Assembly (NCBI GenBank): GCA_026770025.1
Contig: JAMXDE010000003.1
Location: forward strand, 2,046,001 to 2,110,000
Direction of reading: 5' to 3'
Source: Craspedostauros australis
Taxonomy: Eukaryota; Bacillariophyta; Bacillariophyceae; Mastogloiales; Achnanthaceae
DNA length: 64,000 nt
Shown: piece after piece, positions 1-52,241 of the stretch
How positions within the stretch are numbered: the first letter of the stretch is position 1
How the letters are laid out: each line of letters opens with the position of its first letter
Notes under the pieces: generated by a model
Seen by the model: only the letters and a program-made list of their open reading frames with translations
Database searches by the model: none
Told to the model about the DNA's origin: nothing
Translations under genes and position numbers: made by a program

Positions 1-1
1 C

Positions 2-32595: not shown

Positions 32596-35500
32596 TTATG
32601 AAAACTTTGACAATCCGCCAAGTGCTGCTGCCGCCAGCCGTCGTTGTTCCGGCGTTGTATCCAGCGACACCAACCGAATGACAGCCATGGCCTGCTCTTT
32701 CGATTGGAAGCCCAGCTGTTTCCATTGCGTCTTAACTTCTTTCGGCATGAGCATGGATTCGTATCCAATATCAGACGCTTGGCTTGAAAGGCTATCCCTT
32801 TTTGCTGCGGATGTGGTGTGTTGGGGGAAATGGCTGGTTGGCTCTTTTGCCGAAGATGCTTGTGGAGACAGCGGTGGTCTGGCGTTGCTGCTGTCCCTGT
32901 TGCGATGCTGCTTGCCATCGTCGCCAGGTGGTAGCGCTGGTGCTGATGCAGACCGCGATGACTTGTGGGAGTCGATTGAAAACCCTGCGCCAGAACCAAC
33001 GGAGATCAAGGCCGGTGCAGAGACTGAATCGTCGGAGTGTGTTGGGACTGAAACCACATCACCAGTGTGTACCACGGAGAATCGCCTTGGGGACGGTTCC
33101 AGATGCACGTTGTCATCGCGACCATCGTAGGTTGCGCTGTCGCTCTTGTTGGTATTGCTGTCAACATTTCCGGAACGGTTGCGCACGCCTGCTACATCCC
33201 CATTGCCGCCATCACCTTCGAAATCATCCAGGGTAGACGCGTGGCTGCAGCCCTTGGGCTGCGTGCTTTCCTCCGTCGTGTCGGTGAATGCACCTGTTGA
33301 ACCCTCCAAGGGCATACGTGGATTTGCCGAGTCAGTCGAATCCGACGCCGTTGCGAGTCTGGCTGTGTCGTTGGTGTTGCGGTTGTTGTCATCGTTGACA
33401 TGGATGATATCGCCCCTGCCGAAGCTCCTGGCGCGCAAGGGCGACGCTTGCTGTGGAGACGCCGTTGGCTTTGGTGATGATTGCCAAGTCTCTTGTTCAG
33501 AACTTTCACGCCTTTCAATGTTGGTGGCAGCCTTCGCAGACGCATTTTCAACAGGCTCATTTACGTGCCTGCAAACCGACACTGCCATGCTGTTGCCTTC
33601 GCTCGTGCGAGGGAATGCGTCGTTGGAAGCGCTCTTTCCATGTTGCTGCTGCTCGTCCGCGTCGCTCGCCATGTCGCTGCTGATGCGAGTGCTCAGCTTT
33701 TGGAGCGATATCGCCGTAGCCTCCTCTGCGGCAGTCAGAGTTTCGGATTCCACCCTCAAGATCGGAGGCATGGAATTGGACCGCACTGGTGAGTGACGGG
33801 GGTCTCCCAGGCTTAAGCGAGCATGGTGGTGGCTGTGATTGGCTTGGTTGTTGGTGTAATTGTAGGCCCCCTGCGCGCCGGTCTGCGCTGCAGCGAACCT
33901 CGTGGATTGGTTGCCGGAGGAATCGTTGCGTGCCTCTTGGACGCGGAGGATCTTGGGCACGAAGATGAGGACCATGACGGTGAAATTCTGCAAGAAGACG
34001 GCGCTGGAACGGACGAAGTAGAACACGTCCGTGTTGTCCTGCACCAAGGCCGAGATGGGAACAGCCAGGACGAGGACCTGGAACATGAACATGACCGCCA
34101 ACGAGATGTAGCTGCTTTCTGCCAAATCCGAGCTGATATCCTTGGTCTGGAAGCACAGGACGAGCGCATACAGAAGACACACGACGTGGAAGGTCACCAA
34201 TCCCAGGTAGAACATCCATCCGTCTCCGCCTCCCGTGCAGCTTCCAACGGACTCCGTCGGCGATCCTTGGAAGGTTTCCAGGATTTCGCGCTGCCATTTC
34301 AGAGGGGATACGAGTTGCCACGACAGGAGGATGCCGACCTCGATGGCGAACATGGCCACCATGATGGGCACGACGTCGATCATGCCGACGCGTTTGCGCT
34401 GCATCTGCATGCCGGCCTGGAAGATCATCTTGACGCGCTGGATCTTTGCGAACAGCGCGGAGAATGTCACGACGAAGCCCATGCCGTACAACCACGGCAC
34501 GGCCATGCAGCTGCCATCCGCGAGACCGATATTCTCGTTGGGTTCATCCACCAACATCTGTCCCTGGTCGTTGACCTTGCTGCGGTATCCGGTCTGTATG
34601 CCCATGAAGACGATGGAGAGGCTGGAGACGAGCGTGCCGATGGCGATGAGGGCCAGGAATTGCGGTTGGCTCACTTGCACGGCCCATTTCGTGCGGTACG
34701 CCCACGTCCATCCCAACGCCAAAAGACCGGTGCAAAACAGGAGGGACGTCAGCACGTATCCCAGCATCTTCAGTGAATCCGGAATGTAGTTCATATCTTC
34801 ATCAGGAAACTCGGGACACACCTCGTACAAATTGGCTTGACACACGACTTCGTCGGGCGCTGGTGGTTTGTAGACGTAGTTGGGCCCGCTCTCGATGGTG
34901 AAGTCCAAGATGCGCTGGTTCGTGTACGCGAAGTAGGTGAGGAGGTAGACGGCCAGGTTGCCCTGGAAGAAGGGTTGCTGATCGATCCCGAACAGAACGA
35001 TGCCATCCGCGATGGCCTCGAAGATATCTTCGGATACGTCGAAGGTCGCCACGATCGCGCCGTTGCGCTTGCCTTGGATCATGGCGCGCATGGGAAGGAC
35101 CTGCACGGAACCGCACAGCAGCAGACCGATGTTGTTCCAATCGCCGGACGCACCGACCGCGTTTTCGACATCGAGCTGGTACTTGGCGGCGTTGTCGGCG
35201 GCGACCGGAATCCAGCCGCCGTACTGCACCTGATCCGCGCTGTTGAGATTGTGATCACGGATGTGCGTTTCGAATCCGCGACAGCGATCCGCCGTCGCGC
35301 CGTTGCCGAGATCATGATCGAGACAGTATCCCGTCGTCATGCCGGCCTCGATCATGCGTTGGGCGGCGCCGTAGCCCGCGTTGTACTCGTCCATGCCAAT
35401 GTGATGGAAGATGCCGTTGTTGCGAGTGGTGTTCGTGCGCTGATCTGATGCCTCCGTTCCTAGTTGCCGCAGCGCGTAGGCCATGTCCTTGCCGCTGTTG

Positions 35501-37869
35501 ACGGAAATGACGGGCACGCGCAGCTGCAGGCACTGCTCGATGGATCGCAGCAGCGTTTCGGATGGGATGGAGACGAAGATGCCGTCGACGCCCGATGCGC
35601 ACAAGCTGGCGATGCGCGCCGCCATGAGGTCGTGCACTACCCGGCTGGCCGCATCGATTCTGGCGCCCGTGGAGTTGTCGGCCACTTCGCCAACGGCCTG
35701 CGGTGCGTAGCGTTCCAGGTCGAGCTGGATGTTGCCGAGGTCGATGGCCGCCTGTTCGGCCGACGAGAAGACGACGTCCCAGAAGGAATCCGTCGTGACA
35801 CCGTGCAGGACGCCGCCGATGCGGATCTCCTTCTCGCGGTTCATGCAGTTGCAGGACGATATGAGAGCCGGCTCGAGGGCCGAGCCATGACGGCGGATGG
35901 TCTTCGCGTACTGCGTGGTGAGGTATTCCGGGAAGAGGAGGGTGGGGGAGTAGGTGGAGAAGTCGATGGACGCGCCGCCGGGCGCGGCATCGGTGAGGCA
36001 GACCGGGAAGCTGTCCGTCTGGCATTCGACGTAGCTGTCGGTGGGTATCTTGTCCTGCGTGATGACGTTGGGTCCGACGGAGTAGAAGCCATCTTGGAGC
36101 GGCATGGAGAGCGTGGTGGACGTCGTAGCGTAGAGGGTCGCGAGCACGACGCTCATGGTGGCTTGCAGCGAGTACTGCGGATCCATGCCGAACTGCACCT
36201 GCCCCAACGTGATGGCCGTGTAGATCTCCTGCGAGACGTCTAGTGCGATGACGGATTGGATCCTGTTCTCCTCTGAGGAGCAGCGGCCGCCGCGTTGCAT
36301 CTCCTGCAGGGCGTCGAGCGTGGAGGAGACGCTGGGGAGATCGGCGATGACGACGATGTCGTACTTGCAGAAGATGGAGAACCACAGATCGAGGGCCTGG
36401 ACGTTGGAGTCGTCGATCTCGACCCGGATCGTGTGGGCGTCATCTTGGACGACGACCTTGCGGTTGGGTTCCGTGAGAACGATGCGCTCCATGCGCGTGT
36501 CGGGGCTGCGTTTGCGCAGGGTCTCCTGGATGCCTACGTAGCGAGCATGGACGATGTCGCCGTTGGCCGTTCCGGTGCCCGACGTGAATTGCGCGTTGGA
36601 GGGAGGCGTGGGCTCGTAGGTGACGAAGGCGACGTAGTTGATTGGGTCCGCGTTGGTGTTGCCGTCCAGAAGGGTCTCCATGGCGCGGCGTCCGACGAGG
36701 TACTCATCGTGTCCGATCCAGGCGACGATGTTGTTGTCTTCGCGATGCAGCGGCAGGGCGTTCCTGGTGATCCTTGCCGAGTCCGCCTGCGGGCCTGCGG
36801 TTGCGTTGAGGCCGCCGGCATCGTGGTAGTAGGGCACGCTATGCATGCCGAACGTGGGGATCTCCAATTTGGGTCGCTGGTGCGAGTCGCCGTAGAGGTA
36901 GAAGTAGGGCGGCACGGCCATGATGAGCGCGTCTAGGTCGTCGCTGAAGTATTGATCGTTGGCGCGGCGCCATTCGGAGAAGTAGAAGTCGCGCATGCGC
37001 TGCTGCTGCTGCCGCTGCTGCTCTTCGGACAGAGTGGAGGCTTCGAAATTCTGCAGGGCGTTATCGGCCTGCGACTGGTGGTGCGAGGCGATGCCATCTT
37101 GGAAGACGACGAGGTCCAGGTCGACGTGGACGTCGGCAGCGGCCTGCTGCAGGCTGGCGACGATCTGGCGCCACGACAGCTGGCTCCAGTCCTGCGGCGT
37201 GGGATGCAGCAGCGGCGCGGACGAAGAGGCGGACGAGAGGCCCGCCTTGGTGCTGCGCAGCGTGTTCATGAGGGCATCGTGCTCGCTGTGAGTGAGGGAG
37301 GATGGCAGCAGCACGCGCAGTCGAACACTGGACCTGGCGATGCACGGGTCGCAGTCCAATCGGAGGTAGTCCGGTCTCTCTGGTTCAGCGCTGGGCGATG
37401 TCTTGGTTGTTGTTGTCGTCGTTGTTGTTGTTTGGGTATCATCCTGCAACCACCTCCACAGATCTGGTTGTGGTTGTGATTGTGTCTGTGATTGTGTCTG
37501 CGGCTGCTTCAGGAACTTGGGCTCTCGGTGTGGACGTGATGGAGTCGGCGATGCTGAGACACAGCAAGACGAGGCTGCTGCTGATGACAATAGCGATGAT
37601 GACAACGGTGATGACAACGGTGATGACAGAAGGATGACCAGCAAGCAGAACATGGTCGGAAAGGAGCCGGTTGTCATGTTGCTCCTTCGTCCGTGTCGTT
37701 CATTAGCACGAGTACTATCCGTTGCATGATATCTGTCACATCGGCTCTCTTCTCTTCTCGTTCTGCTGCCACAAGTGGCTGCGGCTGTGGATGCAGCGGA
37801 TAGTCGCACTGCTGCGACGGTGCGCAAAGGCTCCATGGTGCCGTCCTTCGTGATGCCGCTGCTCTCCAT
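32596..37869 (-). CDS. Class C GPCR with two tandem sugar-binding-type Venus flytrap domains
   Basis: 1757 residues from ATG 37869, the first in-frame ATG. A signal peptide (MTTGSFPTMFCLLVILLSS) begins at the later ATG 37677, which may be the real start. Module 1 (about 170-620) and module 2 (about 673-1019) are both periplasmic-binding-protein-1 folds of the ribose-binding type. Each has an IGxDEY...G segment, a later ALDVS/TFDVS...G..xFGxDxQ segment, a SVGPN/ESGPN end and a Cys linker (QTDSFPVC; QANLYEVC). A seven-helix class C domain follows at about 1033-1305 (for example FLALIAIGTLVSSLSIVFMG, DGSCMAVPWLYGMGF), then a 450-residue Ser/Asn/Asp-rich cytoplasmic tail ending in a conserved segment (GYESMLMPKEV...QWKQLGF). 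Closest relative in the window is the gene at 46842-52241. Expected at the plasma membrane; ligand unknown. Confidence 0.88.
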   Translation of the reverse strand: MESSGITKDGTMEPLRTVAAVRLSAASTAAATCGSRTRREESRCDRYHATDSTRANERHGRRSNMTTGSFPTMFCLLVILLSSPLSSPLSSSLLSSAAASSCCVSASPTPSRPHREPKFLKQPQTQSQTQSQPQPDLWRWLQDDTQTTTTTTTTTKTSPSAEPERPDYLRLDCDPCIARSSVRLRVLLPSSLTHSEHDALMNTLRSTKAGLSSASSSAPLLHPTPQDWSQLSWRQIVASLQQAAADVHVDLDLVVFQDGIASHHQSQADNALQNFEASTLSEEQQRQQQQRMRDFYFSEWRRANDQYFSDDLDALIMAVPPYFYLYGDSHQRPKLEIPTFGMHSVPYYHDAGGLNATAGPQADSARITRNALPLHREDNNIVAWIGHDEYLVGRRAMETLLDGNTNADPINYVAFVTYEPTPPSNAQFTSGTGTANGDIVHARYVGIQETLRKRSPDTRMERIVLTEPNRKVVVQDDAHTIRVEIDDSNVQALDLWFSIFCKYDIVVIADLPSVSSTLDALQEMQRGGRCSSEENRIQSVIALDVSQEIYTAITLGQVQFGMDPQYSLQATMSVVLATLYATTSTTLSMPLQDGFYSVGPNVITQDKIPTDSYVECQTDSFPVCLTDAAPGGASIDFSTYSPTLLFPEYLTTQYAKTIRRHGSALEPALISSCNCMNREKEIRIGGVLHGVTTDSFWDVVFSSAEQAAIDLGNIQLDLERYAPQAVGEVADNSTGARIDAASRVVHDLMAARIASLCASGVDGIFVSIPSETLLRSIEQCLQLRVPVISVNSGKDMAYALRQLGTEASDQRTNTTRNNGIFHHIGMDEYNAGYGAAQRMIEAGMTTGYCLDHDLGNGATADRCRGFETHIRDHNLNSADQVQYGGWIPVAADNAAKYQLDVENAVGASGDWNNIGLLLCGSVQVLPMRAMIQGKRNGAIVATFDVSEDIFEAIADGIVLFGIDQQPFFQGNLAVYLLTYFAYTNQRILDFTIESGPNYVYKPPAPDEVVCQANLYEVCPEFPDEDMNYIPDSLKMLGYVLTSLLFCTGLLALGWTWAYRTKWAVQVSQPQFLALIAIGTLVSSLSIVFMGIQTGYRSKVNDQGQMLVDEPNENIGLADGSCMAVPWLYGMGFVVTFSALFAKIQRVKMIFQAGMQMQRKRVGMIDVVPIMVAMFAIEVGILLSWQLVSPLKWQREILETFQGSPTESVGSCTGGGDGWMFYLGLVTFHVVCLLYALVLCFQTKDISSDLAESSYISLAVMFMFQVLVLAVPISALVQDNTDVFYFVRSSAVFLQNFTVMVLIFVPKILRVQEARNDSSGNQSTRFAAAQTGAQGAYNYTNNQANHSHHHARLSLGDPRHSPVRSNSMPPILRVESETLTAAEEATAISLQKLSTRISSDMASDADEQQQHGKSASNDAFPRTSEGNSMAVSVCRHVNEPVENASAKAATNIERRESSEQETWQSSPKPTASPQQASPLRARSFGRGDIIHVNDDNNRNTNDTARLATASDSTDSANPRMPLEGSTGAFTDTTEESTQPKGCSHASTLDDFEGDGGNGDVAGVRNRSGNVDSNTNKSDSATYDGRDDNVHLEPSPRRFSVVHTGDVVSVPTHSDDSVSAPALISVGSGAGFSIDSHKSSRSASAPALPPGDDGKQHRNRDSSNARPPLSPQASSAKEPTSHFPQHTTSAAKRDSLSSQASDIGYESMLMPKEVKTQWKQLGFQSKEQAMAVIRLVSLDTTPEQRRLAAAALGGLSKFS

Positions 37870-39490
37870 GATGCTTGTGGTCGAGGTTCTCTGTGTTCCT
37901 TTTGGCGTTCTCGTTGTTGGTTTCGTCTGGCGACACGTTCGAGCGCAAGTACAATCATCAACTGGTGTGGATGTGATTGTGTTTGTGCTCTTGGATTGGA
38001 GGAGCTTCGATGTGGTGCTGATGCTGATCTTGAAGCTGCGCTTGTTCGTGCAATCCGAGTCGCTTTTTGTGGAGTAACTGTAGAGAACGCGCGTCTGCTC
38101 TGCGCACCGCAGATACCCATGCACGGAGCGCGAAGGTTGCGACTACACGGAAGAGGCTAATCGTAATGTGTTAATAGAATAGTTGCACGTGTCTTTGGCG
38201 AGGTTGCTCTCCTCCCATGATGTGAAGAAGAGAAGATGATGGCGCCAAGAGAGCAAGCAACCAAGAAACGGGGAGAGAAGAGACAGCAAGACGTTGTTTC
38301 TGTTTTCTTGGTGGGGTCGGGCGAGTGTTTTACCTGCGTTCGCCTTCGTCGTGTTCGCGGGCGTGGAGAGAGGCAGCGTTGAATTTCGGCGCTTCGGTGC
38401 GTTGTTGTTTGGTTTCGTTTCGCGCAGAAACCGTGTTTGAGCAACCTTGGAAATCTGGCACTGCCCGCTGACGCTTCGCGCTGCCATTGTTTGTGAACAA
38501 CGCAGGGCTTGTTGCCCGTGGTTCAATGCCAGTCCCCATCTTACAACGACGCTGTCCTTCATGGTCCTTTTGAGCATAGAGGGTCATTGGTGTGATATTG
38601 TGCTGTTTATAACGGCGCTTTGTGCGCACTCGTGCAGTACAACTAGCGACGGACATAACACCGCTCTTCGCCACGTTGCCACGGAAGGAAGAATTTCGTG
38701 ATCCCGAAGAAGTGGGACTGTTCTGCGAATCGTAACTGGATTATCTGTGGGAGATGTTTGTCTCCATCAACCTTGATCCTTGGGTCTCGGCTGGGAGTGC
38801 TCTTGGAAATGGAGCAAGGCAGAACGATTGAACCGATGTGGTGGCTCCAACGTCGCAGGTAGTGTATTGTTGTGGTGCAGTTGCTCTCTCTCTCTCTCCT
38901 GTTGCGAGGCATGGATGAAGTCCCCTGGTTTCCTCTCTGTTGGCGCAACCCCTGCTGGAAATGCACACTCCGGACAACTATTTGACCAGAATTCTGTAAA
39001 AAAGCCTGTGTGAGTCTTACGGGACAGATAAAAGACATAATCAGATTTTCGCTCTCAATAGTTGCAGATTCATTTGTCCTTGACCAATTCAGCTAGAACT
39101 TCCCATTAACGGACGGTTTCGGACAATTTCGGACATCGAAACAATGTGCCGCAAACACACCTCGTCTGGGAGTTGGAGGAGATATAGAACACTTCAGGTA
39201 GTTTTTCGGAGTCGAAACAGGGCTGAAACGCACCTTGCAACGACCCCATACAAACAGGTCCATGTCGATCCCCAACCCCAACGATGGTGTCAACAAAATG
39301 CAAGACAGTAACTGGCATTGACTCAAACCTGCAAAGCAGCATATCACATATTGGTGGTGCTCCTATTGAGCTTGATCTTGAACATGCTGTTGGCTCATCT
39401 GTATATCTAGTTCAAAGTGATTCACCCCCCTTGATTGGTCTCCAAAGCTGCTTGACTCGATCAATGTTTGACAGAAAAGAGAGGTGATTC
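37870..39490. other. GPCR upstream region and transposon border
   Basis: The part next to 37870 is the likely promoter and leader of the minus-strand GPCR; its frame stays open to 38124 but without an earlier in-frame ATG. From about 39.1 kb the sequence turns CpG-poor and probably belongs to the transposon. A 67-residue plus-strand open frame (39284-39487) was seen without recognisable homology. No terminal repeat was found. Confidence 0.45.
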
Positions 39491-40813
39491 CTACTTCATC
39501 AATATTTGCGTGATGACAGCCACTGGCGTGAACCTGACACAGTGTTTCTTCAGTAGATGGAGGTAGCGTTGAGCCAAGCATCCAAATTGCTGCAATCGCC
39601 GATTCACTGTTTCATGTCTTGCACGCACGTGCTCCTTTGCCTTCTTCTCTGCAGCTGACCAGTAGTTGTCTGGGGTACGCACTTTGAACGGCTTGCCTTT
39701 GTAGCCACCATCAGCTTCGACCATCTCATCTTCGTCCAACATGTGAATGGAGTTTCTCCTGAAGATTCTCATATCTGGAAACTTTCCACACAGAAATGGC
39801 CCACTGATCCATTCGATATCACCATTTTGAATGGAAATGACAACTTCGTATCGCAAACCAGGTCCTTTAAACTTATGCGACAACCATCCTGACCAGAAGA
39901 CAGCTGGCTCTTCAATTTGGAAGTCCGTTCCATCAACGCTCACTCTGCATGTGCGATTTCGATTGCCAATCATGTGATTCTCCCACTTGATCTGTGGTTG
40001 CAGCAGAGAGAAGTGAGGAGCAAGTTGGGATTGGAATGTGAGTGAATGGATGAGCTGTGCTTTGGTGTTCAGACAAATCACACGGCAATTGGAACTTACC
40101 CATCTTCCCTTGCCTTCTGCGATCAGGCCAATCGTTTTCCATACCCAAGTGGACAGAGTGGAGCAATCAATTCCAAGTTTGGTTGCCATTGTTCTCTGAG
40201 TGGAGTAGTCCTTCAGAAAGTGTAGTGTCCACAGCAGGTGATGCGGCTTCACTGCTTTGTGGAGCTTGCATTTCTTCCAGTTCAAGCCGCACACTGTCAG
40301 AGAGACGCCACACTGCGCCTGGACATGTTCGATGATGGCTCTTTTTGAGATGTGATTGGAGACATCATGAAGTACATATCTTGCTGTGGTGATAAGTATT
40401 GTTCCAGGGAAAGAGAGTCTGACATTGTGGAGTGTGAATAGAGGAAGAGAAGCAAGAGAGTCGGCTAAAGATGTGAGTTCGCAGAAAAGTGAATTCGCAC
40501 TCAATGCAAGATGCCAGTGATCAATAGTGCAGCAAGGAGAGCAACAGCAGGAAGTCTGCCATTGATGGTGGAAAGTTCCAACTCGTTTGCGCATGGTGCC
40601 TTGTGCTTCAAACCGATTGCAAGCTGCAGAGGCTGAATTGCCAAACTGGTTGCATGCCAGCTTCTGAATATTGCTGGAGACTGTTGATCTTGATGGCAAC
40701 ACTGGTGGTGAATGTGATGGTGGCAATGGTGGTGATGATAACAATGGAGCATTGTTACTTGTTTGATTCTGTTTTGTGTGAGTTGTGGGTGATGGAGTTG
40801 TTGATGATACCAA
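39491..40813 (-). CDS. DDE superfamily (Harbinger-type) transposase
   Basis: About 440 residues of open frame; the frame is open back to 40920 but has no ATG before codon 74 (40594), so the true start lies in an upstream segment. The C-terminal half carries the DDE endonuclease core: VSVDGTDFQIEEPAVFWSG (first Asp), CGKFPDMRIFRRN (second Asp), VEADGGYKG, and ARHETVNRRLQQFGCL (likely catalytic Glu), an arrangement typical of DDE_Tnp_4/Harbinger transposases. The middle has a helix-turn-helix-like segment (TMATKLGIDCSTLSTWVWKTI). The N-terminus is Ser/Thr/Pro-rich linker. Enzymatic role: cleavage and strand transfer of its own element. The upstream frame at 40899-41450 may be its N-terminal part, now out of frame or separated by an intron. 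Confidence 0.8.
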   Translation of the reverse strand: MVSSTTPSPTTHTKQNQTSNNAPLLSSPPLPPSHSPPVLPSRSTVSSNIQKLACNQFGNSASAACNRFEAQGTMRKRVGTFHHQWQTSCCCSPCCTIDHWHLALSANSLFCELTSLADSLASLPLFTLHNVRLSFPGTILITTARYVLHDVSNHISKRAIIEHVQAQCGVSLTVCGLNWKKCKLHKAVKPHHLLWTLHFLKDYSTQRTMATKLGIDCSTLSTWVWKTIGLIAEGKGRWVSSNCRVICLNTKAQLIHSLTFQSQLAPHFSLLQPQIKWENHMIGNRNRTCRVSVDGTDFQIEEPAVFWSGWLSHKFKGPGLRYEVVISIQNGDIEWISGPFLCGKFPDMRIFRRNSIHMLDEDEMVEADGGYKGKPFKVRTPDNYWSAAEKKAKEHVRARHETVNRRLQQFGCLAQRYLHLLKKHCVRFTPVAVITQILMK

Positions 40814-40898
40814 CCAAGGACTTGTCTGTGGAGTTGTCTGTGTGGCGCAGAGTGTCGCTGTTGGGCTGGTGGTGATGGAGAACCTCCAATTGTGTCCT

Positions 40899-41450
40899 CT
40901 ACTTTTTCGCTGATTCTTGGGAGCATGTCACTTGGAAACTGGGCGAGGTTTGCGCTGATACGATGGCTGAGGTTTCCAACAAATGGGTTGTTGCTGATGA
41001 TTGGCGACTGGCAATTGGAAGGTTGTTGTCGTTGGAGCGCAAGCCAGAAACTGCAACCTGCAAATCACAACGAGCATCATGTGAAAGTCTGGAGTTGTCT
41101 GGTGTCTGTGTGTGTTGGTGTCCACTCTGTGCAAATCCAGCTCCAGGTTGATCCTGTCTATTGGCTCTTGGCAACAGCAGCGCAGACAAAGCGGGACTCC
41201 TGCGCGCCTGCTGCTGCTGGGATTGGCGAGTCACTGACTCGCCACGAATCCCGGCGCTCTGGAATGCAAGAAGAGCATCATGGCACTTTTCTTGCAGCGT
41301 GTCCATTACAGCTTCCGGAGGGACAGAACAGAGCAACGCACCTCGGAATGATTGTTCAGCAATGTCCGTTATGCTCACAGGTGCTCCGAAACGTAATGTC
41401 AGTACTCCAAAGTCCTCAGATATGAATACATTAAATGCTGTTGGGTTCAT
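40899..41450 (-). CDS. Upstream ORF of the transposase, probably its N-terminal part
   Basis: ATG at 41450, 183 residues, stop at 40899. It begins with an ordinary-looking segment (ISEDFGVLTLRFGAPVSI, VMDTLQEKCHDALLAFQ) and passes into a Gln/Ser/Thr-rich linker. The transposase frame opens at the TGA near 40920, so the two frames overlap by about 20 bases and continue the same kind of linker. This suggests one protein split by a frameshift or an intron. No family recognised for the N-terminal segment. Confidence 0.4.
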   Translation of the reverse strand: MNPTAFNVFISEDFGVLTLRFGAPVSITDIAEQSFRGALLCSVPPEAVMDTLQEKCHDALLAFQSAGIRGESVTRQSQQQQARRSPALSALLLPRANRQDQPGAGFAQSGHQHTQTPDNSRLSHDARCDLQVAVSGLRSNDNNLPIASRQSSATTHLLETSAIVSAQTSPSFQVTCSQESAKK

Positions 41451-42477
41451 TCGTTTGCGCACGCGCGAATGTGCAAAATGCATGCTCGCCTTTGCACAGC
41501 GGAATTGAATTGCACACATACAAATGAACCTGAAAAGCATACTGCAAGCACACATCTTCGCTCATTGTCAACGAAGTTGCAGCAAATCATGATCTGAAGT
41601 GAAGTGCGAGAGTTTGTTGGAAATGACTCAAGAAACCAGTCATTTTGTTTCATCCCAGTACCGAAATGAAGGCCATTTCTTCATTCCACTGGAAGCCTGA
41701 AGGCGATTTCTTCCTGCCAATACCAAAATGAAGCGCAGACCCTTGACAATAACATGCATTGTGAGCAGGCTTGCTTGCGAAGTCCAGAATTGAATCTTGG
41801 AAGGCACACCAGTGCAGCTAAGCACATGTACATCAAAATTAACTTCATGCTACCACCCAAGATGAGCTTGCTCTCAATTGCAACCATGTCAATGTGGGTT
41901 GTGTTGGTCGTTTGACACACGAACCCAGGTGACATTTGGCCTGACAGCTTTGAGAAAACACTTCCCGTTTTGACGGTTGCCAATGTTCCACTGACAGAAG
42001 GTGACGATGGTGACGATGGTGATGCCTCCCACACAACCTCTCATAGTCTCGCTCACAAAACAGCGATCAGCGACCTTTGCTTCCCACTTCACATTTTCAG
42101 CCATGATCCGCCAGCAGCAGCAATGCCTTCTTCACAGGACTGCAAAAATGCAACAATACCACCATGGCACAGTGTAAGGGTAATTATGGCAAGCAACCAT
42201 GAGCCTGCAACTTGGTGGGTTTGATGTGGTTTGAAGATGGGCTTGCATATGTGTGCAACAGAGCCGATAACAGAAAGAATATAAGCTGCCTGCAGCTCTG
42301 CTCCTGAAAGTGAAGGACTTGTCCAGAGCCAGTCAGGCTATCTCGTGAGCATCGTGTGCTCCTGGAAATGAACCAATGCTTGATCAAGCACCCATACTCA
42401 TTTTTCTTCTGTCTTTCCTTTCATGTGCACAATTCATCAACACTGATCACAAGCACAACCTCCACATCTCATAAAAC

Positions 42478-44009
42478 ATGGGCAAGTGGCAAATCGTGAG
42501 CATTGTAGCAGCGATCCTCTTCGATTTGTTCAATTGGCTCATTGGTCTATATGACCCAAACAACTACTCAGCAGCTGTTCTTCGAAAGGACCCACACCAC
42601 CATCACATTTGGGATCAACACAAACTCAACACCTTCACAGGATACTGCAAGCAAGTGTCAATATTAGTCCTCAGACTCCAGCAGCACAAGGAAAGTAAGT
42701 CCTCATCTTTGCCACTGTTCTTTACAAGCTGTTGTTCTTGCAGTGCACTTCCTTGGACCCTTGTGCCTCACAGCTTGTGCTACCATGTTTCACTGTTTTC
42801 CTGCTTCTCAGTTCCACCATGTGAGCTCCTTACCAAGCTGCTAAGCATCAACCAAGGACCTCCAGCCAACAATGTCCGCCCCAAAGCAGTGCAGTACAAT
42901 CCAACTATATGCCAGCCAGAGGGCCCAGCTGCCAAGAAATGGAAATGACCACCACCACCTGATCTGGACGATGACATCAACTTTTGTCCTGGAGGAGGTG
43001 CTGACACCAACGAAGCAGCAGACACCACAAGACCATCACAGGCACAACCATTGGAAGGTCAAGTGGGGCCTGCATGAAACTTGGACCCAAAAGAAAGCTC
43101 CAGCATTGATGACAGCTACATTGAAGTTGAAGTTGACACTGTTGATCTTCCGGAAGATATTGCAACCATCAAGACCAACAAGATCGAGTCTTTGAACAAT
43201 GCCTTGAACACAATGAAGATCTCTTCAGGTGGTTCCTTTGGGAACGCGCATTTCGAGACAACATGGTGTGATTTTACGTGGTTAAAGACACCTTTGATCT
43301 CGATGGTGACATTTGAGAGCAGTACTTGGTGAACGTGCAGATGCTGTCTGGCACTGACACAGAATCTGAGAAGATTGAGGTGTCTACCTGTGGACACAAG
43401 GTCATTGCTACCATCCCAGTGGCTCCTGCAAACTATGATGCCTACTCTCTATTCAGCCTCTGCAACAGAGATGTCTTCAGCCACTTTTTTGACCACATGC
43501 AGAAAGGGATAGATGCATTCACAATGAAAGGCAACAAAGAATGTGCACCATGCACCTTCACAGTCCATTTTGAGGAGAAGCTGGAGTTTGGAACCTATGC
43601 AACAACATCACATCAGATGGGGCCCAAAGGTCAATTCAAGACTGTGGAGGATGGAGAGCCAGGTGGGTACATCTCAATTCAATTGTTTGCGGTGGTCCAA
43701 TCCACTGGATCAATGATTGAATCCCAAGCACGACGATCAAGAAAGACCATGGCCAAGCCAAAGAGCAGTCGAAGTGCAATGGCATCTCATAGTCGCAACC
43801 AACGCAGACGTACTTGTTGACAGGAGAATGGAGGAAGTGGCCAAGGCAGCAACAGGAATGATAGAGATGGCAACAACCAGCATCACCATGGCAATTATGA
43901 TTCGTGTGATAGAATGTTGATTGACAACGATGAGGAGAGCTTTGGAGATGAGGACCCACACAACGTTGGTCATGGAGGTGATATTGGCGACAACAATGAG
44001 AGCTTGTGA
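42478..44009 (+). pseudogene. Decayed second gene of the transposon
   Basis: Starts with ATG 42478. Reading frame 1 and then, from about 43200, frame 3 gives continuous protein-like sequence (for example FYVVKDTFDLDGD, EQYLVNVQMLSGTDTESEK, FSLCNRDVFSHFFDHMQKG) broken by a frameshift near 43150-43200 and by in-frame TGA codons at 42946, 43075, 43269, 43314 and 43818, before the last TGA at 44007. A possible short intron (GTAAGT at 42695 to TTCTTGCAG at 42743) lies near the start, though its removal leads to a new stop. No family recognised; by position it would be the transposon's accessory protein. All premature stops are TGA, as expected of CGA to TGA change, and 43441-43690 has no CpG. Confidence 0.55.
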
Positions 44010-44233
44010 TGCGGTTATAGCTTGCGATATATTATTGGTTCGTGGGCTGAAAAGATCAAGATGCCGACAGTGAAACTTCACTGTATGACAGCAAGGAGGC
44101 ACGTAAATGTGCATGACGGTTTGGAGTGGTTGGCGGTCCTGCGCCGTGTGTGCTGTTTGCTCATATCATGAAGCAGCGCTGCAAAGGTTATTGTTTTGTA
44201 ATTTCCACAGCCTCCCTACTCTAATTGGCTGCG

Positions 44234-44680
44234 TCATTCTCCCAATACGACTTTCTGTCTCATGGTGAATGTTTTGTGCCTTTTGGGGACACGCTCCCTG
44301 AGATGGCCTGTTCTCAACCGGCTTGAGACTACTTGTTGTTGAGAGCCAGGCAAGGCAGAGTGAACTAATTGATCGATGTGAACTGGAGTGAAGTTTGCAA
44401 TAGGTTGTGAATTACTATCGAAGTGGATTATGATGAGAGGTTGCCCAACTTGAGAAGTCATAGAAAAGTCAAGCATGCAAAGCCATGGGATAAGCCGTCC
44501 TTTGGTAGAATCAAACAGAACAGCACCTACTCCTGTAGAGCAGTTGATGCATATCCTTTCTTTGGAGATCTGACCCGAATCTTCTGATTCAGAGCAAGGA
44601 AGAGCTGTTCCGGTCTTGCTGAGATCTACTATCTGATTGGTTGCAGTAACAGATGACAGAAGGAAGCAATGTACTTGCAT
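44234..44680 (-). CDS. Hypothetical ORF at the transposon's right side (doubtful)
   Basis: 148 codons open on the minus strand, beginning MQVHCFLLSSVTATNQ. It contains a CINCSTGVGAVLFDSTKGRLIPWL-type hydrophobic stretch but no recognised domain. The composition fits the neighbouring transposon more than the host genes. May be a transposon fragment or chance. Confidence 0.2.
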   Translation of the reverse strand: MQVHCFLLSSVTATNQIVDLSKTGTALPCSESEDSGQISKERICINCSTGVGAVLFDSTKGRLIPWLCMLDFSMTSQVGQPLIIIHFDSNSQPIANFTPVHIDQLVHSALPGSQQQVVSSRLRTGHLRERVPKRHKTFTMRQKVVLGE

Positions 44681-46841
44681 ATGGAGGGCTTCTTGTGTCA
44701 GAGCAGATGGTGATGGACAGAGTGCAAGATCAGATCATTGTGAGAGCATAGCAAGTGTCTGATTTTGCACCCTGTCTTGCTCGGTTATCCACTGTGTCCT
44801 TGTTGCACATTTCTTGCATGTCAGTGAGTCCTGGTGTCAAGCAAGCAAGTTCATTTTGCTCACATGAGGACCCACTTACTTGGACTCAAAGCTCTAACAC
44901 GGTTGTGGGGATAGTGTGTCCCAACTCTCATCGTTGTCCCGCCACCAACCAGAGGCATAGCACGAAAAAACGCTGTTTGCTGCTAGATCGTCGCAGCGGT
45001 ACTCACTATCTGGCTAACGATGCCTTCGGCAGAAAATGCATGTCAAGATCACTGTGGGCGAGCACCAAAATGATCGTTGAGAGCGGAAGGGGATGATCTT
45101 GAACTTAGCCCCTTCCCAGCGTGTGCTACCGTCACTATGTGCGCATAATTCTGTGCTGTTGTCACAGCATTCGCAACCGTCCAATCCACGGAGGCCATTT
45201 TATTTCTTCGGCGGAGTTTCTGTTGCCGTCGCGCGATTGTTCATAAATGCCCCAGTTGAGTTCGTCCGTACTTATTGACATTCGTTTCAATCATGTCATC
45301 CACGATGACGTAGTGTCGTGTACGTTGCAAACTTCTCCTGGCGCGCAGGTGTCACTGGGAGGCTGTGTGAATAACGCGTCGAAGGGGAGGGAGTGAAACA
45401 GAGAAGAGCCAAAGCATGGTCTTGTGTGGACAGCTCAGGGCCATCTGTCTATTTGTACTAATTAATCTGATGCGTTCAATCGTGTCGCCGACGACAGCGA
45501 TACCTCTTGCCTTCCAGACAAGAAATGGGAAGATACTTTTTGTTCTTGGGAGGATTCGCACACAGTAATTGCCGATAGTACGCAGTCAGTTACCGCTGTG
45601 CCACAGCGCTCTCGCTCAGCCGTTGCATGTCCAAGAACTCAACAGGGAGTAATGGCAATCGCTCGCTACAACGAATGAGGCTTTATCGTGTCTACCCGCA
45701 GTTGTCATCCTTGAGATCGCGAAGAGGAGGTTGTTCGTCTGTGTTGTTGTTGATTGACGCCATTGTGTCATGGGGTCAGTCGGCTTTCATTGCCAGTATC
45801 CGAGTCGAAGCAGCATCATTTGCACTTCGATGTGACAAGACGGAAGCATTGTGGTTGCTGGTGAACATTGGAAGGTATAATACCAAGGTGGAGACGTTCC
45901 AATCTTTGTATTCGTATTCGTATTAATAGTCGTACATCTTCTTGTGGGCTACCGCGTGAAGGAGAATAGTTGTTGATACCAATACTACTACTCTCTGTCT
46001 GGTGAGAGCGTACGAAGAGTCTTCGTAGATCGACGCAGCTGAATCTGTAGAGAGAGATGCAGAGAGTGCTAGTATAATAGATATGATAGTTATCCGCATG
46101 GCGTCGCCAAGATTATGTAGAGTAGAGAAGAGAAGAGCAGGTTGTGCTCACCAGGGGCGAAGAGGACTCCAAAGTCGGCACTCTGCTACGCTCTGTTGGA
46201 GAAAGCTGTGGCGAGTATTCTCCACGTGCGCCAACAACGGCGCACAGCTCCCTGGATTGTGATTCTCATTGGCGCGTGGTCTTGACACAAAGAACCGGAG
46301 GCAGAACAGCAAAAAGACCGTTTCCATTCCCCACGGATGCGCAAACACAAAAGAGGGCAACGAGGGCAACCACAGCTTTTCGTTGTTGGGATTCTTCACA
46401 CACCGCACAGGCACTAAGAAGCACGTTGGCTTCGTCGCCTCTGCAAGCAGCTTTCATCACAAGACACGACCACCGACACGGATACGAACGGCATCAAACC
46501 ATAGTCGCATCATAGAATACACCGTACCATACGTGTAGGAGGAGAGCGTAGTGCAAGGCAGCGCAAGGAGAGGCAAGACAAGAAGCCGAAGTCACGCGCG
46601 GCAACCCAAGAACATTATTTACGTTAGATGCTGAGACTCTCTTGCAACGACAACCTCTTTGGCGACCTCTTTGACGACCCCTTCATCAGCTTCAGCAGCT
46701 TCGTGGATAATAGAGGGACGCAAGCACTCTCCTAATACTCTGCTCCATCCATCGTATCAGATCATATTGTATTGTATTGTATCATACAATACTGTTATTG
46801 ATAATAATCTGCTGCGTCCAGTTGAACTGCATTGCAAAAAG
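44681..46841. other. Intergenic region upstream of the plus-strand double-flytrap GPCR
   Basis: No supported gene in about 2.2 kb. The right part should hold the promoter and leader of the GPCR; a TTGTA-type short repeat lies at about 46768-46790. Short open frames only. Confidence 0.5.
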
Positions 46842-49800
46842 ATGAAGCCAAAAGGACAGACGATGGGGCAATCGAGATCAGATCCACGCAGGCGGCAACG
46901 GCAACGGCAGCAACATGACCAGTGTCAGCAACAACAGCAGCAACAACAACAACACCAGTCGCTGCTCGAACAGAATCGGGAGGAGATGAGATCGCGTCGT
47001 GCGTCCCGCAGCGTGCTGTCGAGTGCACGCATTCCAGAGGCATGTCCCTGTGCTCAATCATCCCACGATGACCAAGCTCATGCTCAATCATCCCATGCCT
47101 TCAGCACCGACAGATGCGTGCAGGCAGATGAAGACAGTTGCGGGAGGCGACGTCTGCAAGCAACGAAGCTGCCACAAGCACGAGCACCAACAGACGCAGA
47201 CGTACAACATTCAACATGCCATCCGTCGCATCGCCACCGGCATCGCCGCCTGTATCGCACGCCAAACTCCGAGATAAGGATCAGACGATGGTCGATCCCA
47301 TTCCTGCGAGTCATGCTCATCTCGGCCATCGTGCACCAATGGATTCTGGCAACATCGCTGGTGGCCGCCTCGGTGGAATCCGCAACGGGCTTCCTCCCGC
47401 TCACCCTCGACTGCGACCCCTGCATCGACCGGTCGCTGTACCAGATCCGGGTCATCCTGCCGGCCTCGCCATCGCCCTCCGCCGAGACCGACACCTTCTC
47501 CTACGTCGACTACGATTGGAACGCCCTGCACTGGCGCCAGATCCGCTCCGCCATGGACCAGCTGCAATCCGACTTCCGCATCCGCCTCGAGTACAGAATA
47601 CCCACGGGCATCGACGCGGGCTCGCGCCTCGAGCTCACCAACTACTACCGCACGCAGCTGCAGAACGCCAAGCAGGACTACTTCATCTACCAGTTCGAGA
47701 AGGAGCTGTACGACCGCTCCACGACGTCATCCTCCGATGCCGACAGCCGCCGCGCGTGGACGAGGACGAGGAACAACGCCGTGAGGCGTGACGATCCAAA
47801 CGCGTCCAAGCTGCCGCAGACGTCGCTGTCGGACAACCAGCGCATCGACGCGCTCTTCATCGCCATTCCGCCCTACCAGTCGCAGATCATGGACATGCTC
47901 TACCAGGATCTCGACATCACGGACTCGCTGCGCGCCACGTTGCCGCATCTCTTCGCGCGGCCCGATCGACCCATCGTGCACAACACGGTCCTGCCCATCT
48001 TCGGATTTCATTCGCTTCCGTCCTATCCCTCCGCCATCGGGGTGCCGCTACCGCAAGCGCAACCTGCAAAGGCTACAACGGATGCAACGGATGCAACGAC
48101 ACCAGCTGACGACGTCAAGGCCGTCGTGTCGTCCAAGCTCATGTCCTGGATTGGATACTCGGATCATGATATCGGGAAGCTCGCCATGCAGACCATCATC
48201 GACCGTCATCCCGAGGCCAACGACATGCTCTTCATCGCCACGCATCGATCCATCCAGAACGTCAATGTCTCCTCGTCGGCCTCCGCGTACATCTCCAACC
48301 TCGTGCAAGCGCGTTTGGATGGAATGGACCTCGTGAGGCGCCAGCACAACGATGCGATCACGCTGGATCCCCTCGATCTGCAACCCATCGACGTTAATGC
48401 CGATCAGCGCAAGGACGACGTGCAAGCGTCCATCAAGAACAAGCTCTTCGATGCCCACTACAATCGCTGCCGCTACGATGCCGTCTTCGTCGTCGATATC
48501 GACAGCCTCGATGCCGTCCTCGCCGTCATGGACGACGACGTGCGCGCGCGATGCACCGACACCGTCGTCATCGCGCTCGATATCGGCACGGTCTCGCCCG
48601 TCTACTACGATGCTATCCAACGATCGCACCTGCACTACGGCATCCAGGTCTCCAACACCTACATCGAAACGGCCCTGTCCATGATCTTCGCCATCTTCTT
48701 CATGACGGCCGGACAGCAGATCGCGGTGCCGCGCGAACGCAACGCCTACGTCACGGGGCCCAAGCTCATCGCGGCGCCCACGGCGGACGATACGCAAGCC
48801 TTCCTCGAGTGTCAGTTGAATGCCTTTCCCGTGTGTCCGGGGCCGTCGGCCGTCAACGTCGAAGAGCCGACGCTGGACACCCAGTCGCTGCGGCGCAGTG
48901 TCGATACGGAGACGCGTGCAAGCTTCGTCAGCACGAACAACGAGGGAGACACGGAGAGCCTCGTGTGGCCCAACGTCGTGTCGCCGTGTCCCTGTCTGCA
49001 ACGATCCAACGAGATCCGCCTGGGAGCCGTGCTGCACGGCGTCACGACGGACTCCTTCTGGGATCTCGTCTTCGACTCCGCGCAACAGGCCGCGCTCGAT
49101 ATGGGCACCATCCAGCTCGAGATGGATCGCATCACGCCGCAGGCCACAGCCACCATGGTGCACGAGCTCATGGCGGCCAGGATCCAGAATCTGTGCTCAT
49201 CCGGCGTCGACGGCATCATGGTCACCATCCCGTCCGATGTCGTTCTCCCAGCCATAGAGTACTGTCTGCAGTCCTCCATCCCCGTCGTCTCCATCAACAG
49301 CGGACTCGACACGGCGATGCGTCTCAATCAAAAGTACAACACCAACGCGACGGCGTCGGGCGAGTCCCTGTTCCTCTACCACATCGGCATGAACGAATTC
49401 AATGCCGGGTATCTGGCGGGACAGCGCATGATCGAGGAAGGTGACATGAAGTACGGCTACTGCATCGACCACGACGATGGCAACAGCGCCACCTTCGAGC
49501 GCTGTCGGGGATTTGAACAGGCGATTCTGGACAGCGACAGGAATGTCATCTTCAAGGCCAGAATCGCAATCCCGCCCGACAACACGGTGGAATACAAGCT
49601 CGTCGTCGAACAGAGCGTGCAGAACGATTTCAAGGACACCGGCATTCCTGCCAATTGGGATAAGATCGGCTTTTTGCTGACGGGATCGGTGCAGGTGCGC
49701 GCCATCCGAAGCACGCTGGGGTATGGTGTCGGTGTCGGAACGGAAGCTGTCACGGCTCCCATTGATTCCGAACTCCCGGAGAATCGCGACGGTGCAATAG

Positions 49801-52241
49801 CTGCGACATTCGACCTCTCCGCCGAGGTGTACGATGCGATCGAGGAAGGCATCATCCTGTTCGGCATCGACCAGCAGCCGTACTACCAGGGCAACCTCCC
49901 CATCCACCTCCTCACCTACCATGCAATCACGCAACAGCAGGTCTTGGACTTCCAGATGGAAAGCGGCCCCAGCTTCGTCTACTCGCGCCCGGCCGAAAGC
50001 ACGGCACAGTGCCAGGCCAACATGTACGAGGTGTGTCCCAACCGCCCGTACCAGGAGTACAACTACATCTCCGACGCCTACTTCACCTTTGGCTACGTGC
50101 TGTGCGGTATTATCTACGCGATTTGCATCGCGGGGTTGATCTGGACGCGCTGCAACATCCATCTCTGGGTCGTGCAAGTCAGCCAACCGCTGTTCCTCGC
50201 CTTCATCGCCATCGGCACAATGATATCCGCCACCTCCATCGTCTTCATGGGCAACCAGACGACGTACCGCAATGAGCAGGATTATTTGGGCAACCTGCTG
50301 CAGGACGAGACGAATCCTCAGGTCGCATTCGTCGATGCCAGCTGCATGGCGGTGCCGTGGCTGTACGGTATGGGATTCGTCATCACCTTCTCCGCGCTTC
50401 TGGCCAAGATTCAGCGCGTCAAGATGATCTACGAGGCCGGCATCCAGATGAAACGCCGGCGTGTGGGCATGATCCATGTCTTCCCCATCATGTTCGGCAT
50501 GTGCGTCATCGAGCTGGCGATCCTGTTGTCGTGGCAGCTGATATCGCCGTTGCGGTGGGGACGAGAAGTCCTGAAGGAAGAAGGCGGTTTCGTCGTCGAG
50601 TCCATCGGCAGCTGCTCAAGCGGCGACGACGGGTGGATGTTCTACCTGGCGCTGGTCACATTCCACGTCATGTGCCTGATCTACGCCCTCGTGCTGTGCT
50701 TCCAGACCAAGAACATTGGTTCCGACCTGGCAGAGAGCAACACCATCTCATTGGCGGTCATGTTCATGTTCCAGGTCTTGGTACTCGCGGTCCCTATCCT
50801 GGTGCTGGTCCGCGACACAGCCAACGTGTTCTTCTTTGTCCGCGCTGTGGCCATCTTTTTGCAGAACTTCGCAGTCATCGTCTTGATCTTCGCACCCAAG
50901 ATCATGCGGACCATCTGGGTGGAGGACACCGTCCCAAAGTCTAGCTATCACAAGAGCAGCATGAACAGGCAGCATTCGATGCACAGCGTTGCATCATACG
51001 GTGGCGGTGGCGGGAACAGGCCCGCCATATCCCGCGCAGCCTCCTTCACATCCGCCAAAAGTGGCATGTACGGCGGTGCACCTTGCTTTGATCAATCTCA
51101 GTTCGGAGGCGCGAACAACAACAACAGGCAGAAGACGACAGTGAAATCATCTTACATGAACGATCTTCATCTTTGCCACGATTCCTTCCAGGAGCAGATT
51201 CGTCGCAAGCATGCCCAAAATCGTCTACGCGGATTGGTTAGCAGCTCGAGCGACGAGGATGAATGTGGCAACATCAGGAGCGGCGCCGACAGCCATTGCG
51301 ATGGCAACTATGGCAATGACTACGAGTACGATGATGATGACATGGACGACTCGAGGTCGTTCTATGACGAAGGAGCAGAAATGACCAACCACCCACGCCA
51401 TCACCAGAGCCAACCGAGCGGGACAACAACCGAATGCAGCAGCGACAGCCGTTCGCATCTGGCGGAAGGGCCAACATCGACGGCCTTCTTCATGAGGCAG
51501 CTGTCTTTGCAGAATTCCAGCCACCACCACGGAAAGGATGAACCCATCAAGGATTGGGGGACATTCAGCTCCATGTACTACAAGTCCGTTGCATTGCGGA
51601 ATCACGTCATCCATGAAACGATCGGCACAGCCGATGACGGTGATGACGCCCATGGAAATGAAAACAATGGCCATCGCGAACACAGCGAATCCAACAACAT
51701 CAACAACAACAACGACGACCACAGCGTTGGTCCCAGCGTCAGCAACGATGAAATAGAGGAGCAAAAGATGTCGAGTGGGACCATCGTTACGAACATCACA
51801 GGCACGAGATACTTTTCACGTGCATCCTCGACATCCAAGAACCATGAACGCCGCAGCGGCGTTTCTGCTGCTGGCTATGGCGGGAATGTGCGTGAAGAGG
51901 AACAACCCATCATGAGTCCCCTTCCGCAACGAATGATCTACGATTCAGAGTCCTGCGGGTCGTTGGATTATCTGGATGGTAGTGAAGAACAGCAACCGCT
52001 AAAACAGGGCCAAAACCTGTCAACTGATGTTACGCCGGACGACAGCATGCACTCAGAGAACGGTTACGAAACCATGTACATGCCAACCGAAATCACGTCG
52101 CAGTGGCAAAGCCTTGGATTTGAATCGTTGGAGCAGGCTCAGATGGCGCTGCAATTGATGTCGCTGGTCACGACACCGAAGACGCGACGTTCGCTGTTGC
52201 TGAGGGACAACGCCGACGACACGGACACTGTCGACGCTTAA
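46842..52241 (+). CDS. Class C GPCR with two tandem sugar-binding-type Venus flytrap domains
   Basis: 1799 residues from ATG 46842, the first in-frame ATG. A hydrophobic signal-type segment (VMLISAIVHQWILATSLVAA) begins near residue 158; ATG 47313 there is an alternative start, giving 1642 residues. The preceding part is Gln- and Arg-rich. Module 1 (about 186-666) begins LDCDPCIDRS and ends in the Cys linker CQLNAFPVC; module 2 (about 716-1065) begins CLQRSNEIRLGAVLHGVTTD and ends CQANMYEVC. Both look like ribose-binding-protein type flytraps. The seven-helix class C domain spans about 1082-1356 (FLAFIAIGTMISATSIVFMG, CMAVPWLYGMGF). The tail is long, Asn/Asp/Ser-rich, and ends with the conserved segment (NGYETMYMPTEI, QWQSLGF). 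Paralogue of the gene at 32596-37869, in opposite orientation, with the transposon between them. Confidence 0.88.
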   Translation: MKPKGQTMGQSRSDPRRRQRQRQQHDQCQQQQQQQQQHQSLLEQNREEMRSRRASRSVLSSARIPEACPCAQSSHDDQAHAQSSHAFSTDRCVQADEDSCGRRRLQATKLPQARAPTDADVQHSTCHPSHRHRHRRLYRTPNSEIRIRRWSIPFLRVMLISAIVHQWILATSLVAASVESATGFLPLTLDCDPCIDRSLYQIRVILPASPSPSAETDTFSYVDYDWNALHWRQIRSAMDQLQSDFRIRLEYRIPTGIDAGSRLELTNYYRTQLQNAKQDYFIYQFEKELYDRSTTSSSDADSRRAWTRTRNNAVRRDDPNASKLPQTSLSDNQRIDALFIAIPPYQSQIMDMLYQDLDITDSLRATLPHLFARPDRPIVHNTVLPIFGFHSLPSYPSAIGVPLPQAQPAKATTDATDATTPADDVKAVVSSKLMSWIGYSDHDIGKLAMQTIIDRHPEANDMLFIATHRSIQNVNVSSSASAYISNLVQARLDGMDLVRRQHNDAITLDPLDLQPIDVNADQRKDDVQASIKNKLFDAHYNRCRYDAVFVVDIDSLDAVLAVMDDDVRARCTDTVVIALDIGTVSPVYYDAIQRSHLHYGIQVSNTYIETALSMIFAIFFMTAGQQIAVPRERNAYVTGPKLIAAPTADDTQAFLECQLNAFPVCPGPSAVNVEEPTLDTQSLRRSVDTETRASFVSTNNEGDTESLVWPNVVSPCPCLQRSNEIRLGAVLHGVTTDSFWDLVFDSAQQAALDMGTIQLEMDRITPQATATMVHELMAARIQNLCSSGVDGIMVTIPSDVVLPAIEYCLQSSIPVVSINSGLDTAMRLNQKYNTNATASGESLFLYHIGMNEFNAGYLAGQRMIEEGDMKYGYCIDHDDGNSATFERCRGFEQAILDSDRNVIFKARIAIPPDNTVEYKLVVEQSVQNDFKDTGIPANWDKIGFLLTGSVQVRAIRSTLGYGVGVGTEAVTAPIDSELPENRDGAIAATFDLSAEVYDAIEEGIILFGIDQQPYYQGNLPIHLLTYHAITQQQVLDFQMESGPSFVYSRPAESTAQCQANMYEVCPNRPYQEYNYISDAYFTFGYVLCGIIYAICIAGLIWTRCNIHLWVVQVSQPLFLAFIAIGTMISATSIVFMGNQTTYRNEQDYLGNLLQDETNPQVAFVDASCMAVPWLYGMGFVITFSALLAKIQRVKMIYEAGIQMKRRRVGMIHVFPIMFGMCVIELAILLSWQLISPLRWGREVLKEEGGFVVESIGSCSSGDDGWMFYLALVTFHVMCLIYALVLCFQTKNIGSDLAESNTISLAVMFMFQVLVLAVPILVLVRDTANVFFFVRAVAIFLQNFAVIVLIFAPKIMRTIWVEDTVPKSSYHKSSMNRQHSMHSVASYGGGGGNRPAISRAASFTSAKSGMYGGAPCFDQSQFGGANNNNRQKTTVKSSYMNDLHLCHDSFQEQIRRKHAQNRLRGLVSSSSDEDECGNIRSGADSHCDGNYGNDYEYDDDDMDDSRSFYDEGAEMTNHPRHHQSQPSGTTTECSSDSRSHLAEGPTSTAFFMRQLSLQNSSHHHGKDEPIKDWGTFSSMYYKSVALRNHVIHETIGTADDGDDAHGNENNGHREHSESNNINNNNDDHSVGPSVSNDEIEEQKMSSGTIVTNITGTRYFSRASSTSKNHERRSGVSAAGYGGNVREEEQPIMSPLPQRMIYDSESCGSLDYLDGSEEQQPLKQGQNLSTDVTPDDSMHSENGYETMYMPTEITSQWQSLGFESLEQAQMALQLMSLVTTPKTRRSLLLRDNADDTDTVDA

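Follow-up and report, generated by a model that had tools for sequence, protein, structure and literature searches.

Two long open reading frames in a 64,000-nucleotide stretch of the genome of the diatom Craspedostauros australis (GenBank assembly GCA_026770025.1, contig JAMXDE010000003.1, positions 2,046,001 to 2,110,000; hereafter the window) appear to encode class C G protein-coupled receptors (GPCRs) that carry two Venus flytrap domains in series on one chain, where one is usual for this receptor class. The genes, RA (minus strand) and RB (plus strand), lie head-to-head about 8.5 kb apart. A sequence-only reading of the window had picked out both frames, and they are indeed present, uninterrupted and with one 7tm_3 domain apiece. 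The sequences establish a predicted layout in which a likely signal peptide precedes the two flytrap units, a short stalk leads to the seven helices and a long cytosolic tail completes the chain, with a structural model adding to the case for the first unit of RA. The proposal in that reading that a single chain bears two flytraps is thus supported, by sequence for unit 2, by the model for unit 1 of RA and by homology for unit 1 of RB. We think it reasonably probable that RA and RB are paralogous chemoreceptors in which the membrane-proximal flytrap (unit 2) is the main sensor and the outer flytrap (unit 1) is its partner or modulator. In what follows units 1 and 2 of RA are called A1 and A2, those of RB B1 and B2, and residues are numbered from the start of the open frame.

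The ectodomain had been described as internally repeated, and this is borne out most plainly in RA, where A1 and A2 align by blastp with 35% identity over 85 residues (E 4e-6) and have a local alignment score of 108, the best of 300 shuffles reaching 56. A1 and B2 score 102 (shuffle maximum 59). The comparison of B1 with B2 is weaker (E 0.01, local score 66, shuffle maximum 62), and that of A2 with B1 is at chance level (local score 53, equalled in 4 of 300 shuffles). Since these scores are low, the repeat in RB rests mainly on the homology of B1 to A1 (26% identity, E 1e-18; A2 and B2 are 49% identical). When two-sequence profiles are compared, the last strands of the unit are recovered together with its Cys end (Prob 93.8, E 1.7e-7). 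When 20 class C ectodomain pieces of this genome were split in the same way, a repeat was seen only in RA (E 3.6e-6) and RB (E 1e-3), and the other 18 gave none (best E 0.15); contig C2 has three near-copies (L018, L020 and L022) that were not part of this control, in which several genes spanning more than one frame were represented by one open frame only.

The repeat is framed by cysteines. All four units open with CxC or CxxC and close with CQx(3,6)VC. RA and RB each contain precisely two copies of the closing motif, and it is missing from all 52 bacterial relatives and all 27 other receptor pieces. The unit starts are absent from the list of ordered landmarks that the earlier reading assigned to each half; from that list the Cys ends hold up, twice in each receptor, and the ALDVS and FGxDxQ motifs have largely been lost from B1. 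The Cys linkers that it placed at about residues 620 and 666 in fact lie further along the chain, the first Cys ends being at residues 701-709 in RA and 718-726 in RB.

A tree built from the four units with 59 bacterial proteins pairs A1 with B1 (100/100) and A2 with B2 (99/97), and forcing A1 together with A2 is rejected (approximately unbiased test, p 1e-8). Because first units group with first units and second with second, the relationships among these sequences place the origin of the repeat before the split of RA and RB. The likely and simplest source is a single internal duplication of a unit already framed by cysteines, since all four units share the framing and the bacterial relatives examined lack it. 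The four units as a whole are grouped at 78/73 support only, with long branches and an unsettled bootstrap, a weak point of the single-origin reading; this level of support is compatible with either route, and the shared Cys ends speak against two bacterial proteins having been captured separately. The possibility that RA and RB are assembly copies of one gene was rejected, the seven-helix domains being 64% identical and the units diverging further, as given above. Across the 74.8 Mb (90 contigs) of the genome surveyed, queries with Peripla_BP_4, A1 and B2 gave no significant match to the units elsewhere, and the closest seven-helix paralogue, on contig C21 (44%), has a weak ANF match and no unit match. 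A search of viral contigs with the receptor pair returned 28 pattern matches and no relative.

For unit 2, the earlier assignment to the sugar-binding-protein type holds by sequence in both receptors, and can be sharpened to the inositol/rhizopine type. Pfam places a type I sugar-binding domain, Peripla_BP_4, directly before 7tm_3 in RA and RB, and relatives in plasmid records (194 for A2, 192 for B2) are binding proteins of sugar ATP-binding cassette (ABC) transporters, with about 30% identity across most of the domain. A2 and B2 each retain 42 of the 62 positions that are conserved in at least 90% of the 52 bacterial relatives. The nearest NCBIfam model is that of a rhizopine substrate-binding protein, NF052284 (E 8e-31 and 2e-33), rhizopine being an inositol-amine; the models for ribose, allose and other sugars barely match unit 2, and do match its bacterial relatives. 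By sequence the top solved structure is PDB 4ru1, termed a verified myo-inositol transporter in a passage of PMC10747050, and a passage of PMC3454389 gives myo-inositol as a ligand of a CUT2 binding protein from S. meliloti. By these measures unit 2 is of the lineage of inositol/rhizopine-type bacterial binding proteins.

Gene neighbourhoods in bacteria bear on the same question. A profile search of genome contigs with the two second units and four bacterial rows gave 565 relatives, of which the best 80 were examined, while the two second units alone found no relative in these contigs. Among those best 80 of 565, an iolG-like gene was present at 55 loci (26-96% identity), an iolD-like gene at 11 and a methylmalonate-semialdehyde-dehydrogenase-like gene at 2, with at least one of the three at 60 loci, a count that has no control set of other sugar-binding proteins beside it. 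Eleven plasmid loci were opened, nine of them with gene tables, and an inositol-annotated gene was found at four of the nine.

Several of the results count against the inositol label. Unit 2 scores 107.2 and 115.7 bits with NF052284, far under the curated cut-off of 420, and the six bacterial relatives scanned with it (four of them part-sequences) likewise fall short, at 310-383 bits. Five of the nine annotated plasmid loci lack an inositol-annotated gene, and four of these five have Gfo/Idh/MocA dehydrogenases, the superfamily to which we take iolG to belong, which makes an iolG-like neighbour unspecific. The modest identity to the bacterial proteins, the score under the cut-off and the five loci together favour a reading in which the receptors respond to an ordinary sugar or to a bacterial signal and the inositol label reflects ancestry only, and this has in our view a chance just short of even. 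It has to contend with the nearest family, which is of the inositol/rhizopine type both in NCBIfam and through 4ru1, and with the presence of inositol-annotated or iolD-like neighbours. Given the lineage of unit 2, a cyclitol or similar polyol would be the first candidate ligand.

The evidence for unit 1 as a flytrap is of a different kind. Modelled alone, A1 takes up a complete bilobed type I periplasmic-binding-protein fold, so that for RA the outcome that the earlier reading had named as fatal to it, a fold in one half only, did not arise. The identification of B1 as a flytrap leans on its homology to A1. A number of observations pull the other way. The alignment behind the A1 model contained binding proteins, which would draw it towards that fold; the predicted local distance difference test (pLDDT) falls below 50 in 98 of its 460 residues; and its Foldseek superposition is loose (root mean square deviation 7.9, TM score 0.70 by target). 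By structural comparison 4ru1 lies within 1 Z of other sugar binding proteins, so the fold of A1 does not single out inositol. The portion of unit 1 preceding the last strands is not significant by itself (Prob 7.7, shuffles up to 3.7), and B1 alone gives Prob 3.2 against bacteria; the shuffle controls for these hhalign comparisons were run against the bacteria-only profile, and the whole-length score is without shuffles of its own. By sequence, unit 1 gives chance-level rows only against Pfam and PDB, B1 has no match in NCBIfam, and A1 has none among the plasmid records at E 1. The conserved positions kept number 23 of 62 in A1 and 14 of 62 in B1. A whole-chain AlphaFold prediction of RA, made from an alignment of just RA and RB, was unusable (mean pLDDT 29.8).

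Two features lead us to take unit 2 as the main ligand sensor: it lies near helix 1, like the flytrap of GABA-B receptors, and its sequence has been conserved between the paralogues. By analogy with known class C receptors, its closing would turn the seven-helix domain and thereby switch on a G protein; the genome has a G-alpha gene. Unit 1 would more likely be a diverged flytrap that partners or modulates unit 2 within the chain than an equal second sensor, and the loss of conserved positions, strongest in RB, leans towards such a non-sensing partner. The same divergence could be taken further, to a dead flytrap that acts as a spacer only or holds the dimer with the paralogue. GABA-B2, a class C subunit whose flytrap does not bind agonist, is a precedent among known receptors, yet A1 still has more than a third of the conserved positions, including several that probably line the pocket, and both paralogues have retained the full unit; we regard a dead unit 1 as doubtful. 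Somewhat less likely again is a two-input receptor, in which each of the two flytraps has a small-molecule ligand, possibly a different one, and the seven-helix domain combines the two inputs. In its favour, A1 is predicted to fold completely and keeps W318, E474, N510, R528, D629 and Q650, in columns that are near-invariant in the 52 bacterial relatives. However, the asparagine of the NSG motif is a histidine in both first units (H428 in RA, H451 in RB), the Q and E positions are additionally altered in B1, and the first units have drifted much further apart between the paralogues than the second units. That unit 2 is the sole flytrap, and unit 1 an unrelated domain sharing a short end with it, would fit the chance-level Pfam and PDB results, the first portion that is not significant alone and a blastp alignment confined to the last 85 residues, and is nonetheless very improbable.

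Well-studied class C receptors that bear flytraps use a flytrap dimer between chains. Going beyond the partner or modulator role that we prefer for unit 1, RA and RB might form a four-flytrap receptor in which each chain has its own pair and switching needs no flytrap dimer between chains, and which would be, as far as known, the first eukaryotic cell-surface receptor for an inositol- or rhizopine-like cyclitol, derived from a bacterial uptake protein and possibly sensing bacteria or other algae. We consider this combination improbable as it stands.

Membership of class C is clear from the seven-helix domain, which scores far above the Pfam cut-off in both receptors (E 4.8e-34 and 6.1e-28) and has GABA-B receptors as its top solved-structure match. 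A crude hydropathy scan beyond unit 2 gives exactly seven segments in RA and a split, less clean pattern in RB. Port et al. (2013; PMC3727952) list, in the portion of their paper used here, a Cys pair of the extracellular loops, basic residues under helix 3, an acidic residue under helix 6 and a PK motif in helix 7 as class C features. Reading the RA/RB alignment by eye, helix placement included, we find C1206 and C1296 as the loop pair, K1227 and R1230 under helix 3, D1333 and E1336 under helix 6 and P1390-K1391 in helix 7 of RA, all identical in RB. The flytrap ectodomain expected of the class is present as well, unit 2 through Peripla_BP_4 and unit 1 through its profile and the RA model, and the two units per chain depart from the usual, non-defining rule of one. 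About 10 residues separate the last Cys (1103 in RA) from the start of 7tm_3 near 1113-1116. Neither receptor matches ANF_receptor at E 10; neighbouring receptors do. A 49-residue motif at the end of the tail is 53% identical between RA and RB, has no other match in the genome and is perhaps a docking site; the remaining tail sequences do not match each other by blastp at E 0.05.

The receptors thus resemble GABA-B in the seven-helix domain and in a short stalk between flytrap and helix 1 without a cysteine-rich domain, and differ from it in that a GABA-B subunit has one flytrap of ANF type, while RA and RB have two of sugar-binding-protein type. Unit 2 resembles the inositol/rhizopine ABC substrate-binding proteins (NF052284, 4ru1) by profile, PDB match and shared motifs; those are soluble parts of bacterial transporters, and the receptor units have the extra Cys ends. 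Varied class C ectodomains in diatoms are not new, since Port et al. describe flytrap, ABC-sugar-type, 5-nucleotidase and Cache forms, with three P. tricornutum receptors resembling components of sugar ABC transporters; the N-termini in that account are 40-730 residues long, with no second flytrap mentioned in the part consulted, against about 920-960 residues, counted from the likely start Met, and two flytraps in RA and RB (PMC3727952). Two flytraps in series are found in front of other outputs. BvgS has them outside the membrane ahead of a kinase. According to excerpts of the respective papers, trypanosome adenylate cyclases carry two extracellular ones (PMC6027212), and CdgH has two of PBPb type with a diguanylate cyclase output (PMC5431781), neither being a GPCR. 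Social amoeba receptors have ANF or BMP domains in the text seen of PMC10445921, and the GPCR text seen of the Seminavis genome paper covers rhodopsin-like proteins (PMC7335047). The main text of a 2025 choanoflagellate survey, as far as it was available, does not mention tandem, two VFT or periplasmic (PMC12716839), and the portion seen of PMC2670285 has nothing on tandem flytraps. The earlier reading had allowed that the double layout might already be described; in the open-access literature, judged mostly by title and the start of the abstract, with most subscription papers and all bioRxiv preprints outside this scope, we recognised no paper on a class C or other GPCR chain with two flytraps, and none in the open-access literature that combines inositol, diatom, receptor and periplasmic.

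Class C receptors serve as the model for the way in which two chains, by closing their flytraps, turn a pair of seven-helix domains. With two flytraps on one chain that rule can be tested, by asking whether a second chain is still needed and whether one flytrap modulates the other in cis. RA and RB also offer a concrete class of ligand to try on an orphan algal receptor, and suggest a route by which a bacterial nutrient-binding protein could be duplicated and converted into a eukaryotic sensor.

Features of the two receptors, in window coordinates
Feature	Position	Strand	Description
Receptor RA	32596..38124	-	single uninterrupted frame, 1842 codons
RA unit 1 (outer flytrap)	35998..37353	-	residues 258-709, CDPC to FPVC
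RA unit 2 (membrane-proximal flytrap)	34816..35853	-	residues 758-1103, CNC to YEVC; Peripla_BP_4, inositol/rhizopine binding-protein type
RA class C seven-transmembrane domain	33952..34779	-	residues 1116-1391
RA conserved C-terminal tail motif	32638..32784	-	residues 1781-1829
Receptor RB	46659..52241	+	single uninterrupted frame, 1860 codons
RB unit 1 (outer flytrap)	47412..48836	+	residues 252-726, CDPC to FPVC; most diverged among the four units
RB unit 2 (membrane-proximal flytrap)	48987..50036	+	residues 777-1126, CPC to YEVC
RB class C seven-transmembrane domain	50070..50900	+	residues 1138-1414
RB conserved C-terminal tail motif	52044..52190	+	residues 1796-1844

By the crude hydropathy scan a hydrophobic leader lies at about residue 150 in RA and at residues 212-221 in RB. 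The start Met of RA is likely to be residue 150 or 158, at the leader (nucleotide 37677 downwards), and that of RB is likely to be residue 219 or one further upstream.

Between RA and RB, at 39491-40813, there is a DDE_Tnp_4 transposase-like frame. The window opens (1-6143) with two class C receptors (7tm_3 at 47-817 and 4632-5402) that belong to a tandem set of three bearing ANF flytraps; the remaining one lies just upstream of the window at C1:2041014. Other frames are one of 2851 codons at 13857-22412, in which a Myb DNA-binding domain lies near residue 2118, one of 1157 codons at 28643-32116, where a long unassigned stretch comes after a dual-specificity phosphatase domain, and, at 54461-55925, a Peptidase_C14 (caspase domain) frame overlapped by a frame with a Lys/Glu-rich end; these two overlapping frames are perhaps one gene with an intron. 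The class C set of the genome comprises, by our count, 23 loci from 26 7tm_3 matches. Its ectodomains are mixed, with ANF flytraps, SBP_bac_8/SBP_bac_1 (C8:1280917 and C53:51607), 5_nucleotid_C (C8:698686), Cache/PDC under the cut-off (contigs C13, C26, C40 and C74) and, at C8:1287482, an ectodomain of about 950 residues without a significant Pfam match. The genome also gives 88 six-frame matches to Silic_transp (contigs C2, C3, C9, C11, C24, C37, C61 and others), a number that is, to our knowledge, far above the usual diatom count; E is 5e-228 or better in 32 of the rows, of which 4 contain internal stops, and fragments make up many of the others.
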